A stretch of 6,148 nt of DNA from a bacterium (lineage in GTDB: Bacteria; CSSED10-310; JAJRTK01): positions 1 through 6,148 of the forward strand of contig JAJRTK010000449.1 in the NCBI GenBank assembly GCA_024278345.1. Direction: 5' to 3'. The position numbers were made by a program, and so were the translations under genes. Numbering within the stretch: the stretch's first letter is position 1; each line of letters opens with the position of its first letter. This document shows positions 1 through 6,148 of the stretch, piece after piece. The notes below the pieces were generated by a model. That model saw nothing but the letters and a program-made list of their open reading frames with translations, was not told the origin of the DNA and made no database searches.

Positions 1-1274
1 CGGGATTGCCCGTCATTTTGGGATCCGCCTTGCAGCAGAGCGCATAAGGATCTGTGAAGGATCTTGCCAATTTCGCTCGCCACGGTGACCTGTTCCCTGG
101 AAACCTCCAGTGTCCGCACTCCCTCTGGAGTTTCCCAGAATCCCTGACGGCAGCTCTTTGCAGGAAGCAGGAGAACGCGTTCCTTGTAACCGCAGGGATT
201 TTTTTTTATGTCGGCAGTGTACGCCAGCATTCGCGCAATCCAGAGGCGCTCCCGGGAGTTTCGAGGCTCACTGCCCGGCGGAGATGCGTATTCTCCCGGG
301 TCCATGAGCTCACGCACCTTTTGGTAGGTAAACCCGGTCACTGAGAGGGTGAGTGCCGCCGGATCCGATTTCGATGTTGCTTTTTTCACGGGGGTCCAGA
401 TTTCTCCCGTGATTCCCGAAAGAGCTGCCGCGTCCACCCGTGCTCCGTCCGTCGTCGCCCAGAAGGCGATGATGGCGCCTTCCAGCACGGCGAGGCGCAC
501 GCGGCGGCAGATCTCCAGGAAACCGGGATCGCAATCGCTCCACGACAAGGCTTCCTTTCCGTTCCAGGGGAGCATCCAGAGCAGGGCGTGACCTTCGGGA
601 GAATAGCCGAATTCATCCACCAGCCGGGGCCGTTCGTCGAGCCAGATTCGCGCGTCCCGGAGGAACCGGCTGCTCCAGGCATGGCTCTCAGCCCGGGTGA
701 CGCAGGGTCGGCTGTCCATCTTTGTTTTCATGCGGCAGACGCCGTAAGTGCGAGGTGCGGGATATCTAGCGAAAGTCTGGAGGGTCGTCAGGGCATAGAC
801 CCAATGTTCCGGTCGGGGGTGGGAGATGCGTCCTGTCTTGATTTCGTGGTTCCTGGAGGTCCTCAGAATTTCTAGTTGATCGGGGCAGTGGTGTGGTTCT
901 TTGAAGTTTTTGAAATGATCGATCTTTCCTTCCGGGACCGGAGTTTGGAAGAAGGCGGGTTTCGACAGGTCCTCCACCAGCAGGCACCAGGCTTCGGCCA
1001 GGCCGCCCGCCAGGCGAAGGAGGGCTTCCCGCCACGCTCCCGGGTCGGAGGCCGGTGTCCCGAGTCCTCCCCGGGCCATGGCCAGGGCCGCGAGCTGGGC
1101 CAGGAAGGCGTGCCAGGGATGTTGCTGGTGGCGTTGAAGGGCCGTGAACTCTAGTTCTTTCCCTTGCCCCAATGCGGCCAGGATCTCTGGAAGAGTCCGG
1201 TCTCTTCGCGTGCCATCCGCGGCGAGGGTTCCTACCAGGGGTTCGGTCAGGAGGTTGTATCGGGTTTCAGGCAT
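1..1274 (-). CDS. cas8e: Cas8e (CasA/Cse1), large subunit of type I-E Cascade, 5' part
   Basis: The frame is uninterrupted from the ATG at 1274 to the window edge (424 codons; stop not reached). In type I-E systems this subunit reads the PAM, holds the unwound target and recruits Cas3. The family call rests on remembered resemblance: an N-terminus with NLLTEPLV at residues 7-14, HQQHPWHAFLAQLAALAM at about 49-66, PAFFQTP at 106-112, RNHEIKTGRI at 141-150, PEHWVYALTTLQTFARY at 155-171 and YGVCRMK at 177-183. Full-length relatives have about 500 residues or more, so most of the C-terminal helical bundle is missing. The ATG at 1274 is chosen because GAGGA precedes it by 8 nt and an in-frame TGA lies about 48 nt upstream. 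Its position right after cas3 on the same strand supports type I-E. A run of nine A occurs at codons 356-359. Confidence is high for a Cas8-type subunit and somewhat lower for the exact subtype. Confidence 0.8.
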   Translation of the reverse strand, partial: MPETRYNLLTEPLVGTLAADGTRRDRTLPEILAALGQGKELEFTALQRHQQHPWHAFLAQLAALAMARGGLGTPASDPGAWREALLRLAGGLAEAWCLLVEDLSKPAFFQTPVPEGKIDHFKNFKEPHHCPDQLEILRTSRNHEIKTGRISHPRPEHWVYALTTLQTFARYPAPRTYGVCRMKTKMDSRPCVTRAESHAWSSRFLRDARIWLDERPRLVDEFGYSPEGHALLWMLPWNGKEALSWSDCDPGFLEICRRVRLAVLEGAIIAFWATTDGARVDAAALSGITGEIWTPVKKATSKSDPAALTLSVTGFTYQKVRELMDPGEYASPPGSEPRNSRERLWIARMLAYTADIKKNPCGYKERVLLLPAKSCRQGFWETPEGVRTLEVSREQVTVASEIGKILHRSLCALLQGGSQNDGQS

Positions 1275-1319: not shown

Positions 1320-1661
1320 TCATCGTCTTGGTTTCCGGCATGGATCATGGGTGTTCTCGGTTGTCGAAGCTTCGTTTCCTGTGGACACGGACATCTGGCC
1401 GGCGGCATGCACTGGGGTGGCTCGTTCCCCGGTCGAAAAAAGCCTTTGTGGCATGGAGAAAGCGTCAAGGGGGATGATAGGCGAGCAGCGGCGCGCCGGA
1501 TGGCGCCCGATGGGAGCGGAACGCAATGAGTAGAAGAAGAAGGGTTTGTTGGCATGATTACCGTAAAGGCGTTCCTCCTTCCGGATTCCCGGCAGGCAGT
1601 TCCCATGCGTTGTGTTCGCCAGGGTGATGCCGTGGGTGGTTTTGTGTGAGGCTGGATTCAT
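1320..1661 (-). CDS. possible 113-residue protein between cas3 and cas8e
   Basis: I do not recognise this protein. The ATG at 1661-1659 overlaps, as ATGA, the TGA that would end an extended cas3 frame. GGAAGG stands 10 nt before the ATG as a plausible ribosome binding site. The TGA at 1322-1320 again overlaps an ATG (1323) of an 18-codon mini-ORF whose stop lies just inside cas8e. Third-position GC over the first 68 codons is about 71 %, against about 50-56 % at positions 1 and 2, which leans toward coding. The product is basic, rich in His, Arg, Pro, Ser and Thr, with FFFY at about residue 41 and no membrane segment or known motif. A competing 99-codon frame (1606-1307) covers much of the same DNA, so this could instead be non-coding spacer or an eroded gene. 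Confidence 0.35.
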   Translation of the reverse strand: MNPASHKTTHGITLANTTHGNCLPGIRKEERLYGNHANKPFFFYSLRSAPIGRHPARRCSPIIPLDAFSMPQRLFSTGERATPVHAAGQMSVSTGNEASTTENTHDPCRKPRR

Positions 1662-1735
1662 ATGTCCGCAGCCTTCCGGAGGCCCAGGCGGTCGTAGAAG
1701 AACCGATGGGAGCCGAAGGTGAAAGAAAATCCCCC
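1658..1735 (-). pseudogene. stranded Cas3 C-terminal codons after an in-frame TAA
   Basis: Directly after the cas3 TAA (1738-1736) the same frame runs on for 25 codons to a TGA at 1660-1658. The codons read like protein: they begin GGFSFTFGSHRFF, continue YDRLGLRKA and end in ADI, with mostly C or G in third positions. From memory, Cas3 proteins of this kind often end in a glycine- and aromatic-rich strand followed by YDRLGL; this was not checked. The simplest reading is a one-base change of a sense codon (CAA, GAA or AAA) to TAA, removing the last 26 residues. Stop-codon readthrough or a base-call error are alternatives. Confidence 0.6.
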
Positions 1736-4450
1736 TTAGATGCCCGTCACGTCCCGGGGCATTTCGTCGGTTCCGACTTCCCGGGCCATCCAGTCGGGAA
1801 TGGGCAGGCTTTTCACCTTGGTTCCGAAAGGACCTGGAGGCGCATTCTCAAAGTCCGCGCGCCGGCTGTCGCCGCCCAGCCGGGTGTAGACCTTTCCCTG
1901 ATCGCGAGCACTGGGGAATCCGCCCTCTCCGAACGGTTTCCCGCGATTCAAGACATTGAGGTTCGCCACGCTTTTTTGGGCCTGGAGCTTTCCCTCCACC
2001 GTTTGTCCGAATTCGCGCCATTTCTGGCCGGAATCGGTTTGCGCCAGTTCTTGCACAAGGCTTCGGACGCGAGCCGGATGGGTCGCCGTTTCCACTAGTT
2101 CCCGGTTCATCCGCGGGATCTCCAGGAGGACCGTTTGGCGATCTTTCTTCGTCGGGGGCCGTAACTGCCGCCAGGTAAGCTCCAGGATCCGCGGATCCCG
2201 GTAGACGGTTCCAAGGCCTGCTGGACCCAGGAGAATCTTTTCGCCTCCGCGGTTCCGGATCTCGATGACTTGGGCCAGATCCTGCTTGTGGGGAACCAGG
2301 ACGAAGAGGCGCGCCACGTCGCGGAATTTCGCCGGTTCCACGTTTTTGGCATGGCGGTGGAGCCGGCCCACGCGCTGGAGCAGGACGTCCATGGGACAGA
2401 GGTCGGAAATCAGGATATCGGAATCGAGATCGAGGCTCTGCTCCACGGTTTGAGTCGCGGCCAGGACGCAGCCTCCGGGTTTGCGATCCTTCCCGAAGAG
2501 GATTTCCACGCGGTTGTCCAGGATCTTTCGGTCTTCCTTGGAATAGCGGGAATGGTGGGGCAGGACCACCGGGTTGGCGCCGTTGCGAGGGACTTGGAAG
2601 AGAAGATCCATCCGTCCCATTTCCCGGGCCATCTCTTCCAGGGCCTCCTGCACCTTGAGGCAGCCGGCCACGGTGTTCCGGATGACCAGGACCTTGGCGC
2701 CCTGGGTGGCAAAATCCAGGGCAAGATTCGCGATTTCGTCCGCGTTGTCGAGCCACGGTTTCAAGGTGACCCGCACCTTCTTTTGAGGCGATCCGCTATT
2801 CTTCACCTGGAGTTCGTGCCCCGCGCTCGGGATTCGCGAGGCGGGTTTTTCCGCTCCGACGACAGCGTGACTGATGAGTGGATATGGAAGCTCGATGGCC
2901 TTTTTCCAGGGCGACTCCTCCGCCTTTTCCCGAAGAGCATCCTTCGCACGAAAGACTCGGGCCAGGAATCGTTCCCGCGCCGAAGAACCCAAGGTCGCCG
3001 AAAGCAGGAAAGCGTGCCCGCCAGCAGCCAGGTGATGGTCCAGCACTACCTCCAGGATCCTGGTCATGTAGGCGTCCGACGCATGGACCTCGTCCACCAC
3101 CAAGAGGTGGCGGAGAAGGGCAGACGCCCGCATCTGGGCATGGTTCACCTGGAGGGCCGACAGAAGAACTTGGTCGATGGTTCCCACCACGATGCCGGCC
3201 GCCATGTACCGCTTCGGGTGCTCGGCTGCCCATGCACGGAACCGCATCTCTTCCTGGCTCTTCTTGTCGGGCCAGAGGACGTGGAATCCCGGGAGCACGC
3301 CCCGGGCTTCCACGCCATCGGCGGAGATGTAGCCGGGGACCGCCTGGACCACCACTGGGCGAGATTCCAGATTGGGAAAGGCTCGTTTCACGATCTCCCC
3401 GATTCGGCGGTAGATCTGGGTCGCCGCCGTCCGCGTGGGGAGCGCGAAGTAGATGCCGTCCACCAGGCCTGCCTGGAACATGCGGAGGAAGCGGGCCAGC
3501 ACGGCCTCGGTCTTTCCGGAGCCCGTCTCGGCCTCCAGGATCGTCAGGCTTCCGTTTCGTTGGTCCGGTCCCACGGGAAGCTCCAGGACCGTTCGCTGGA
3601 TCGCCCGTGGCGGGAAGGGAAGCACCTTCTGGAAGCCCACGGGAAGCGTTCCCAGGCTCTTCCGAGGCTCACCGACCTCCAGGCCGATTTGCTTCATCGC
3701 CTCTTTCGCCCTCTCCCGGGCAAAAGTCATCCGGTCATCGTTGAGGTTTTTGGAGAAGGGAAAAAAGCGTTCAGAATCGGAGCCCAACCAGTCGGCCAGC
3801 ATCACCAGTCCGGAGAAGGCGTGCTGGAATGGCTCGGCTTCCGGCAGCTTGTCGGAGCCATCGTCCTTCTCGAACGCCGCGGGAAACCAGGAGGGGAGTT
3901 TTGCGCAAAGTTCCCCGATTCCTTGAAACGGGTCGAGGGCTCCTCGGGAATTCCAGACGGAGGAGCTGTTGCATCGCCAGTCTCCGCAGGGGATGGGGCG
4001 GCCGTGGTGGCAGATGGCCGCCACGAGTAGATCGCAAACTCTTTCTCCGCCCCAATTCTCGAAGGACTCGATGGGGAGAGCCTCGAAAAGTCGGGCGTCA
4101 CCCTCTTTCAGCAGCCACAGAAATTCCGAAAGATGACCGGCTTCGATCTTGTAGTCCACCAAGGCCCAGTGACGTTTTTTGATGGGAGCCTTGTTCTGGA
4201 ATCCCAGGTTGAACTTTCCCAGGTCGTGGAGCGTCGCCAGGACCGCCAGGCGCTGGATCATCTTTTTGGAAAGGCTGGTCCGCCCCGCCAACCTCGCTAG
4301 CCGGCACCCCAAGAGAGTTTGCTCCAGCATTGCCTCGAAACAAGCCCCCACATCGATGCAATGGTGGATCAAGGGATGCCAGGCCACGACGACACCATCT
4401 TTCGTCCTCAGCTTGCCCCAAAACGTCTTGGGAATTCCCTCCATCTTCAT
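1736..4450 (-). CDS. cas3: CRISPR-associated helicase-nuclease Cas3 (type I-E)
   Basis: This 904-residue protein is recruited by Cascade to degrade target DNA. The N-terminal HD nuclease has HPLIHHCIDV (H25, H30, D33), HD at 75-76 in ATLHDLGKF, H106, HH at 148-149 and D220 in LVMLADWLGSD, so all expected metal ligands are present. The helicase has Walker A GSGKT (310-314, K313), motif Ia FALPTRTAATQ (335-345), DEVH (453-456), SATLG (484-488), TQTVEQSLDLDSD (666-678) and QRVGRLHRH (692-700). E. coli Cas3 has 888 residues, so the length is normal. Two starts are possible: GGAGG sits only 3 nt before the ATG at 4450 but 9 nt before the ATG at 4444 (Met3), which may be the real one. The gene has its own promoter about 270 nt upstream and precedes cas8e, as in type I-E operons. 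The TAA appears premature, because coding-like sequence continues in frame to 1658. Confidence 0.96.
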   Translation of the reverse strand: MKMEGIPKTFWGKLRTKDGVVVAWHPLIHHCIDVGACFEAMLEQTLLGCRLARLAGRTSLSKKMIQRLAVLATLHDLGKFNLGFQNKAPIKKRHWALVDYKIEAGHLSEFLWLLKEGDARLFEALPIESFENWGGERVCDLLVAAICHHGRPIPCGDWRCNSSSVWNSRGALDPFQGIGELCAKLPSWFPAAFEKDDGSDKLPEAEPFQHAFSGLVMLADWLGSDSERFFPFSKNLNDDRMTFARERAKEAMKQIGLEVGEPRKSLGTLPVGFQKVLPFPPRAIQRTVLELPVGPDQRNGSLTILEAETGSGKTEAVLARFLRMFQAGLVDGIYFALPTRTAATQIYRRIGEIVKRAFPNLESRPVVVQAVPGYISADGVEARGVLPGFHVLWPDKKSQEEMRFRAWAAEHPKRYMAAGIVVGTIDQVLLSALQVNHAQMRASALLRHLLVVDEVHASDAYMTRILEVVLDHHLAAGGHAFLLSATLGSSARERFLARVFRAKDALREKAEESPWKKAIELPYPLISHAVVGAEKPASRIPSAGHELQVKNSGSPQKKVRVTLKPWLDNADEIANLALDFATQGAKVLVIRNTVAGCLKVQEALEEMAREMGRMDLLFQVPRNGANPVVLPHHSRYSKEDRKILDNRVEILFGKDRKPGGCVLAATQTVEQSLDLDSDILISDLCPMDVLLQRVGRLHRHAKNVEPAKFRDVARLFVLVPHKQDLAQVIEIRNRGGEKILLGPAGLGTVYRDPRILELTWRQLRPPTKKDRQTVLLEIPRMNRELVETATHPARVRSLVQELAQTDSGQKWREFGQTVEGKLQAQKSVANLNVLNRGKPFGEGGFPSARDQGKVYTRLGGDSRRADFENAPPGPFGTKVKSLPIPDWMAREVGTDEMPRDVTGI

Positions 4451-4750: not shown

Positions 4751-4851
4751 CCCAATAGTCATGGAGACCAATCGAACCACCCCACGATGAATCAAGAACC
4801 AGGGGCTGAGCAGGCCTCATACCCGTGAACGCTGCCCCCCCGGCCACTTTT

Positions 4852-4927
4852 CTCGCCTCAACCGCTTCCAGAGCGTCAGGCCGCCGCCCGCGAGCCTCGC
4901 CTCAACCGCTTCCAGACCGTCAGGCCG
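4852..4927. repeat. 32-bp imperfect direct duplication in the resB 3' end
   Basis: Positions 4852-4883 and 4896-4927 are identical at 31 of 32 bases (difference at 4873 versus 4917) and lie 44 bp apart. In the gene sense each copy can encode GLT(V/L)WKRLRR. Because 44 is not a multiple of 3, the second copy is read out of frame and supplies the TGA that ends the present ORF. Confidence 0.9.
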
Positions 4928-5847
4928 ACTCCCGCCACCAACAGCAGCGTCACCAGCAGGACCAGCGGCACGCTGGGGTTCGTCCGTTTTGTCAGGACCA
5001 CGTACGGCGCTGTCCGCAGACCCGCGAACTCCAGCTTCCCGTCCGGCGACTTGCCGCCCAGGGGCAGTGCTACCTCTATCGGGCTCGCGCCGACCGTGGT
5101 GACGAACGCCACCGGCATCCTGGTCTTGGGGCCCGTGTAGAGCCGGCTCAGGCGGATCTCCGCCGAGCCCAGCCTTCCAGCCTCGCCAGCCGACAACTCG
5201 AGCTCCTCGCCCCCGCTCCGCAACTTGGCCACCGGCGTTTGTCCCACGTTGCCCAGCAGGTATTCCCGGGCTCCAGCCTCGAACACCAGCGGCTGGTTGT
5301 AGGCGATGGTGACCGGTTCCGGCTTCGCGCCAGCGCCCGACGTCCGCTCCAGGATCGCCGAGATCTGCCGGGGCATTCCCGTGGGATGGCGCTCCACGGA
5401 AAGGCTCACAGCACGGTAGATGGCGCCCTCCAGCTCCGTTCCAGCCGGCGTCACTACCCGCTGGCCCGTCTCCGCCGCCAGGCCGCCCCACAAGTGCGCC
5501 ACCAGCGCCAGGAAAAAGGCCACGTGCAGCAGGATGGGCCCAAACGCCGCCGGGTGAAACGCCCGGCCGCGGATCCTTTTCGCCAGCGTGTCCAGGGCGC
5601 AGACCAGGGAACTCATGCCCCACACCGCCAGGCTCGCCGCCAGCAAGTAGAACCAGGCGTGGAGCCAACGGAGCGGCTGGAAGAAGAACCGGAAGTCGTC
5701 CAGCCCCAGCGTGCCGTAGACGTCTTGCCGCGCCGCCATCAGAAAACTGCCGAAGCCCAGGAAAAAGACCGACGTGAAGCAACAGACCAAGCCCAGCTTC
5801 TGGGAACGAAAAAAACTCCAGACCAAGGAGAGATGGTTCATCGTCAT
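4876..5847 (-). CDS. ResB-like cytochrome c biogenesis membrane protein
   Basis: ResB (Ccs1) works with CcsA/ResC in system II cytochrome c maturation, moving haem across the inner membrane and attaching it to apocytochromes. From the ATG at 5847 the product has 323 residues. Membrane segments lie at about 18-38, 63-86 (with AWFYLLAASLAVWGMSSLVC), 102-122 (FGPILLHVAFFLALVAHLWG) and 293-312, with a soluble domain of about 170 residues before the last. Three early helices, a periplasmic domain and a final helix is the ResB arrangement, although many ResB proteins exceed 400 residues. Starts at 5847 and 5841 (ATG) share a weak AAGGCAGG; a TTG at 5901 is possible but less likely. The C-terminus GSRAAA seems secondary: a duplication shifts the frame, and the older end may have been EKWPGGQRSRV, ending at 4817. 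No CcsA partner is visible. An uncharacterised membrane protein remains possible. Confidence 0.65.
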   Translation of the reverse strand: MTMNHLSLVWSFFRSQKLGLVCCFTSVFFLGFGSFLMAARQDVYGTLGLDDFRFFFQPLRWLHAWFYLLAASLAVWGMSSLVCALDTLAKRIRGRAFHPAAFGPILLHVAFFLALVAHLWGGLAAETGQRVVTPAGTELEGAIYRAVSLSVERHPTGMPRQISAILERTSGAGAKPEPVTIAYNQPLVFEAGAREYLLGNVGQTPVAKLRSGGEELELSAGEAGRLGSAEIRLSRLYTGPKTRMPVAFVTTVGASPIEVALPLGGKSPDGKLEFAGLRTAPYVVLTKRTNPSVPLVLLVTLLLVAGVGLTVWKRLRRGSRAAA

Positions 5848-5985
5848 GCCTGCCTTTTCTGCCAAAACCAACGCACCGGGAGAACTCTCCAACCTCGCCA
5901 ATCCCCCATCGTTCCATTCTGGCCCACCATGAATGTTGCGGCCTTCAATGACGTTACTCTTCTCTTACCGTGAAAGTACACGCCG

Positions 5986-6014
5986 GCATGGAGGCCGGAA
6001 GGCCTCTCCAGGCA
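5986..6014 (+). repeat. palindromic repeat, copy 1 (degenerate)
   Basis: GCATGGAGGCC (5986-5996), loop GGAA, then GGCCTCTCCA with one extra T bulged out of the stem. The left arm and loop are identical to those of copy 3. Confidence 0.7.
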
Positions 6015-6042
6015 AAAAGGTCCCGGGGAACGGATTTTGGGT

Positions 6043-6060
6043 GCAGGCCTTCCGGCCTGC
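6043..6060 (-). repeat. palindromic repeat, copy 2 (inverted)
   Basis: GCAGGCC (6043-6049), TTCC, GGCCTGC (6054-6060). Read on the minus strand it has the same AGGCC-GGAA-GGCCT core as copies 1 and 3, so it lies in the opposite orientation, as in REP-like clusters. Confidence 0.7.
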
Positions 6061-6100
6061 GCCCGCTTCTTGCCGGGCAACCGGGAGCGCCCAACGGAGA

Positions 6101-6126
6101 GCATGGAGGCCGGAAGGCCTCCATGC
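6101..6126 (+). repeat. palindromic repeat, copy 3 (perfect hairpin)
   Basis: GCATGGAGGCC (6101-6111), tetraloop GGAA and GGCCTCCATGC (6116-6126) form a perfect 11-bp stem. No T tract follows, so it is not an ordinary intrinsic terminator. The part of the window upstream of the resB-like gene holds these repeats and no recognisable gene. Confidence 0.75.
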
Positions 6127-6148
6127 GAAAGGCCGGAGAAAGATTAGC

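Follow-up and report, generated by a model that had tools for sequence, protein, structure and literature searches.

A premature stop codon near the end of a type I-E cas3 gene in a metagenome-assembled bacterial genome

Is the TAA codon that ends the cas3 reading frame of this locus the natural terminus of the protein, or does it cut a longer Cas3 short, and if so by what means? The window, that is the whole stretch of DNA analysed here (6,148 nucleotides), is the whole of one contig (C388) of a metagenome-assembled genome of 6.06 Mb in 550 contigs, which is 87.9% complete and has a GC content of 60%.

A cas3 frame with a stop before its apparent end

On the minus strand the cas3 frame is open from an ATG at 4450 to the TAA at 1738-1736 (904 amino acids), and past this codon it stays open for exactly 25 codons (1735-1661) before closing at a TGA (1660-1658), coordinates and a count which the first-pass annotation had given correctly. 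Counted through the stop, the frame has 930 codons with the TAA at codon 905. The features concerned, including the neighbouring gene and a repeat that lies between the two, are:

1739..4450, minus strand: cas3 as far as the premature TAA, 904 codons, encoding the HD nuclease, the SF2 helicase and the larger part of the C-terminal domain
1736..1738, minus strand: the premature TAA; the corresponding loop position varies among 78 homologues
1661..1735, minus strand: the 25 lost codons, GGFSFTFGSHRFFYDRLGLRKAADI, coding in the model for three beta strands at the C-terminus; homologous to 78 of 78 complete homologues
1658..1660, minus strand: TGA, the apparent original end of cas3, from reading of the frame
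1429..1572, no strand assigned: one occurrence of a repeat interspersed throughout the genome, with its core at roughly 1430-1549 and 74-98% identity to 40 other places
3..1274, minus strand: the first 424 residues of cse1/cas8e, which runs off the contig end; TIGR02547 at 1.3e-06, homologous to the cse1 near cas3 in 76 loci

The frame has the make-up of a type I-E Cas3, joining an HD nuclease domain to an SF2 helicase in which Walker A, DExH and motif VI are found. It matches the Pfam models Cas3_HD (1.4e-31) and Cas3-like_C_2 (1.4e-26) and the NCBIfam models cas3_core and cas3_HD above cut-off, and all of the catalytic motifs are present (HD, GSGKT, DEVH, SAT and QRVGRLHR). At 5 of 149 strongly conserved columns the protein deviates, against 2.3 ± 2.3 in homologues (range 0-9), which is slightly high but within range. 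The order of domains (HD, RecA1, RecA2, linker, C-terminal domain or CTD), the catalytic motifs and the neighbouring cse1 are shared with the type I-E Cas3 proteins of T. fusca (4QQW-4QQZ, 6C66), T. terrenum (4Q2C) and Salinibacter ruber (WP_118829604.1), from which the window's open-reading frame differs in stopping 25 residues before the conserved C-terminal end. As the Pfam and NCBIfam models end before the Cas3 C-terminus, neither gives a judgement on the extension.

That the 25 codons are open is itself weak evidence: in a genome with 60% GC, 58-75% of the stops sampled at the ends of long open-reading frames are followed by at least 25 open codons. The question therefore turns on homology. 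In-frame ATG, GTG and TTG codons were sought within the segment and none is present, and independent translation of the segment was rejected on these grounds.

The C-terminal segment in homologues and in a structural model

In an initial alignment the read-through translation and five Cas3 proteins had the segment in common, for example as DGGFSFWFSGHSFRYNRLGL in Salinibacter ruber, DSGFTFDYSGHSFTYDRYGL in a genome of the same phylum (G002) and DGFSFQFGSSRFVYDAMGV in Bosea. Scanning genome contigs and viral contigs with a single protein as query gave no close relatives, and only a query made from the Cas3 alignment found relatives: 80 loci in genome contigs were kept, two of them cut by contig ends, leaving 78 complete homologues from many phyla that are 39-48% identical to the window's protein, with nothing closer than about 50%. 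In every one of the 78 the open-reading frame passes the equivalent of codon 905 and runs into a conserved motif, so that the TAA is, as first proposed, premature with respect to the natural end of Cas3. The comparison of the 930-residue translation with homologues that had been suggested as a check thus found C-termini matching the 25 codons, and proteins ending at residue 904 with no similarity further downstream, which would have spoken for a natural end, were not seen among the 78.

Downstream of the stop Y919 and G923 are invariant (78/78), and R921 (75/78), F910 (73/78) and L924 (71/78) nearly so, whilst the residue aligned with the stop varies (D in 27, E in 14, G in 11, A in 6, S in 5 and R in 5). 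Against a leave-one-out profile of the C-terminal columns of the 78 homologues the extension scores 52.2 bits, where intact homologues have 41.8 ± 10.5. Shuffling it 100,000 times gave no score above 25.9 bits, and elsewhere in the window, translated in six frames, no 22-residue stretch exceeded -1.1 bits. Judged by this homology, the 25 downstream codons are the true C-terminus of Cas3. The codons are undecayed, given a score at the level of intact homologues, which would fit a recent change, an error or continued translation of the segment alike. A C-terminal domain ending in F.YDR.GL is absent from the 904-residue frame and appears only when the TAA is translated as an amino acid; because this segment lies downstream of the TAA we file the gene as a truncated type I-E cas3 allele and not as an intact Cas3. 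With an in-frame stop upstream of the homologous remainder of the protein, the gene also has the form of a nonsense (pseudogene-like) allele.

To view the lost segment in the fold, the read-through protein was modelled with AlphaFold2, the stop being written as E for folding only (mean pLDDT 88.2, pTM 0.91). The last strands of the model span residues 899-904, 907-912, 915-920 and 923-926, in a block with pLDDT of about 91-97 that includes the surroundings of the stop. The stop sits in the turn between the strands 899-904 and 907-912, so the truncation would remove three of the four closing strands. In a structural comparison T. fusca Cas3 (4qqy) matches the model at Z 27.9 over 766 residues with an rmsd of 4.0, and T. 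terrenum Cas3 (4q2c) matches it at Z 25.7; taking the end points of the aligned ranges only, the alignments reach model residues 926-929 against chain residue 944, near the chain ends. Conservation and the model, rather than a mutant, suggest that the last 25 residues matter for function, and the truncation probably cripples Cas3; as a later structure paper describes the precise function of the CTD as unsettled (PMC11417383), we infer this impairment from the conservation and the fold.

The rest of the locus

The cse1 fragment scores below cut-off with TIGR02547 because the gene is partial. The other six genes of a type I-E set (cse2, cas7e, cas5e, cas6e, cas1e and cas2e) are present on another contig of the same genome, C243, all open and all above curated cut-offs. 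The genes on C243 likely belong to the same operon as the window's cas3 and cse1; a search for an overlap joining the two contigs gave no shared end k-mer of at least 21 bases from the window ends. The 904 codons of cas3, the 424 codons of cse1 and, on C243, the six cas genes showed no further disruption of frame. The suggestion that the locus may be decaying is hence unsupported beyond the one codon, as the catalytic motifs are present and the six other genes are open and above their cut-offs.

Elsewhere in the genome, C296 carries a type I-C system, and C280 and C377 contain additional cas3 and cas1 genes. At C377:16977-17765 (L032, 640-2667) there is a 676-residue open frame of which residues 269-550 match Cas1, the remainder having no NCBIfam explanation. 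A canonical type I-E repeat with up to three mismatches, which would bear on whether the system is live, was sought in this 87.9% complete assembly and was not found. An exact 25-mer, CACCGGCAAGATGCCGGTGCCACCA, REP-like and palindromic, stands on both sides of the cse2-cas2 block of C243 (L036, 196-220 and 6020-6044). In the window, palindromic GGAGGCCGGAAGGCCTCC repeats, with two direct copies and an inverted arm, occupy 5986-6130 at the contig end and may be the reason that the assembly broke there. A 44-bp imperfect tandem duplication (82%) at 4837-4924, with two long overlapping frames, lies at the 3' end of a ResB-like gene (minus strand, 4876-5901).

The gap between cas3 and cse1 is 384 bases here, whereas the closest homologues have the two genes overlapping by about 8 bases or no more than some tens of bases apart, and in 60 of 76 homologous loci the gap is below 100. 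It contains a dispersed repeat, recognised as such because 1429-1572 matches 40 further sites in the genome; the family is about 100-150 bp long with a core of AGCGTCAAGGGNGATGATAGGCGAGCAGCGG...CCGATGGGAGCGGAACGCAA, and exists in at least 40 further genome copies and several sequence variants. The ATG of an open-reading frame at 1661-1320 does overlap the TGA of cas3 in an ATGA, as had been noticed, but as the next gene of an operon this frame is not credible, with no Pfam match and a course that crosses the dispersed repeat, and for the same reasons the ATGA is not evidence for translational coupling. A consensus search of the gap gave neither terminator nor promoter, and no RNA families were detected in the window at E up to 0.1.

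Broken or rearranged cas3 genes were encountered elsewhere in the scan. In plasmids of Azospirillum argentinense and Pontibrevibacter nitratireducens, cas3 is likewise broken in otherwise recognisable type I-E loci, split into two frames (L028, 2845-5546, and L029, 3001-5122, respectively), though these are frameshifts at positions unrelated to the stop described here (query residues ~638 and 491-585), and because the positions differ they are not a shared programmed frameshift. Bacteroidetes bacterium SW_9_63_38 has a tandem cas3 (L087, 3359-5207 and 6176-8851), of which the second copy is intact and the first is matched by fragments alone, spread over three frames, and in Nitrosospira multiformis (L067, 5001-9209) the cas3 frame continues into cse1 without a stop as a Cas3-Cse1 fusion.

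Accounts of the stop codon and their meaning

The first-pass annotation had offered a point mutation, read-through of the stop or a sequencing error, and of these the point mutation is best supported and the error is its main rival. Conversion to TAA needs one substitution from such common codons as GAA, CAA or AAA. The best explanation, which we consider probable, is a genuine recent nonsense mutation that leaves an impaired Cas3. The TAA would have been gained at codon 905 of a 930-codon ancestral frame in a real and recent event; the CTD of the truncated protein would be misfolded or unstable, and recruitment of Cas3 by Cascade, hence interference, would be lost or weakened, whilst production of crRNA and acquisition of spacers could remain through the intact cse2-cas7-cas5-cas6 and cas1-cas2. 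It is unlikely, though it deserves to be taken seriously, that the TAA is a single-base error of sequencing, assembly or strain consensus and that the living organism has an intact 930-residue Cas3. The window being an entire contig of a fragmented assembly (550 contigs, 87.9% complete) would fit such an error, as would downstream codons conserved as well as in intact genes and the single base separating TAA from GAA, CAA or AAA, E being the second commonest residue in the stop column. Substitution errors that happen to create a stop should, however, be rare in consensus assemblies, and the frames of cas3, cse1 and the six cas genes on C243 hold no other disruption. The truncation could also be real but tolerated, a 904-residue Cas3 working perhaps with altered coupling to Cascade; in its favour are the full set of HD and helicase motifs and a published description of the CTD as differing from one Cas3 to another (PMC11417383), but the lost residues include positions invariant in 78 of 78 homologues and no examined homologue is without them, so we regard this as improbable.

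Accounts in which the stop is decoded are harder still to reconcile with this genome. TAA ends 20 of 132 sampled long open-reading frames, and a reassigned code with TAA as a sense codon was for that reason rejected and is excluded for practical purposes; after TAA the frame stays open about as often as after TAG in the same sample. Suppression or read-through at some rate, giving a short and a long Cas3, would agree with the undecayed downstream codons, but UAA is an ordinary stop here, the RNA around and after it folds less well than 186 of 200 shuffles, and a conserved stop context or stable RNA structure of the kind that marks programmed read-through was looked for and not found, none of the homologues having a stop at this place. 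The variability of the aligned residue among homologues likewise means that the position bears no mark of recoding. With no start codon in the 25 codons either, the proposal of read-through and two Cas3 forms finds no support, and we hold it to be very improbable; that the cell makes mostly 904-residue Cas3 with rare read-through to 930 residues, so dosing Cas3 activity, is scarcely to be expected.

A naturally inactivated CRISPR locus is known from E. coli UTI89, in which a CAG present in other strains is replaced in csy2 by a premature TAG (PMC3784566). The present case resembles it in that a type I system has one cas gene interrupted by a lone nonsense codon, with an expected loss of interference, and differs in that the gene is a type I-E cas3, the stop is near the C-terminus and neither an intact sister strain nor a self-matching spacer dates or explains the change. 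As CRISPR loci inactivated by a premature stop are already documented, this is probably a further instance of that kind. The likeliest account is a recent loss-of-function mutation of an ordinary sort, or else an error of assembly, rather than a new mechanism. The case probably represents one more CRISPR system silenced by one base change in its effector nuclease, with the adaptation and Cascade genes intact. For the family, the comparison exposes a strongly conserved C-terminal Cas3 motif, GFxFxxGxxxFxYDRxGL, in at least 78 type I-E relatives from many phyla, and so marks residues whose mutation could reveal the role of the Cas3 CTD.
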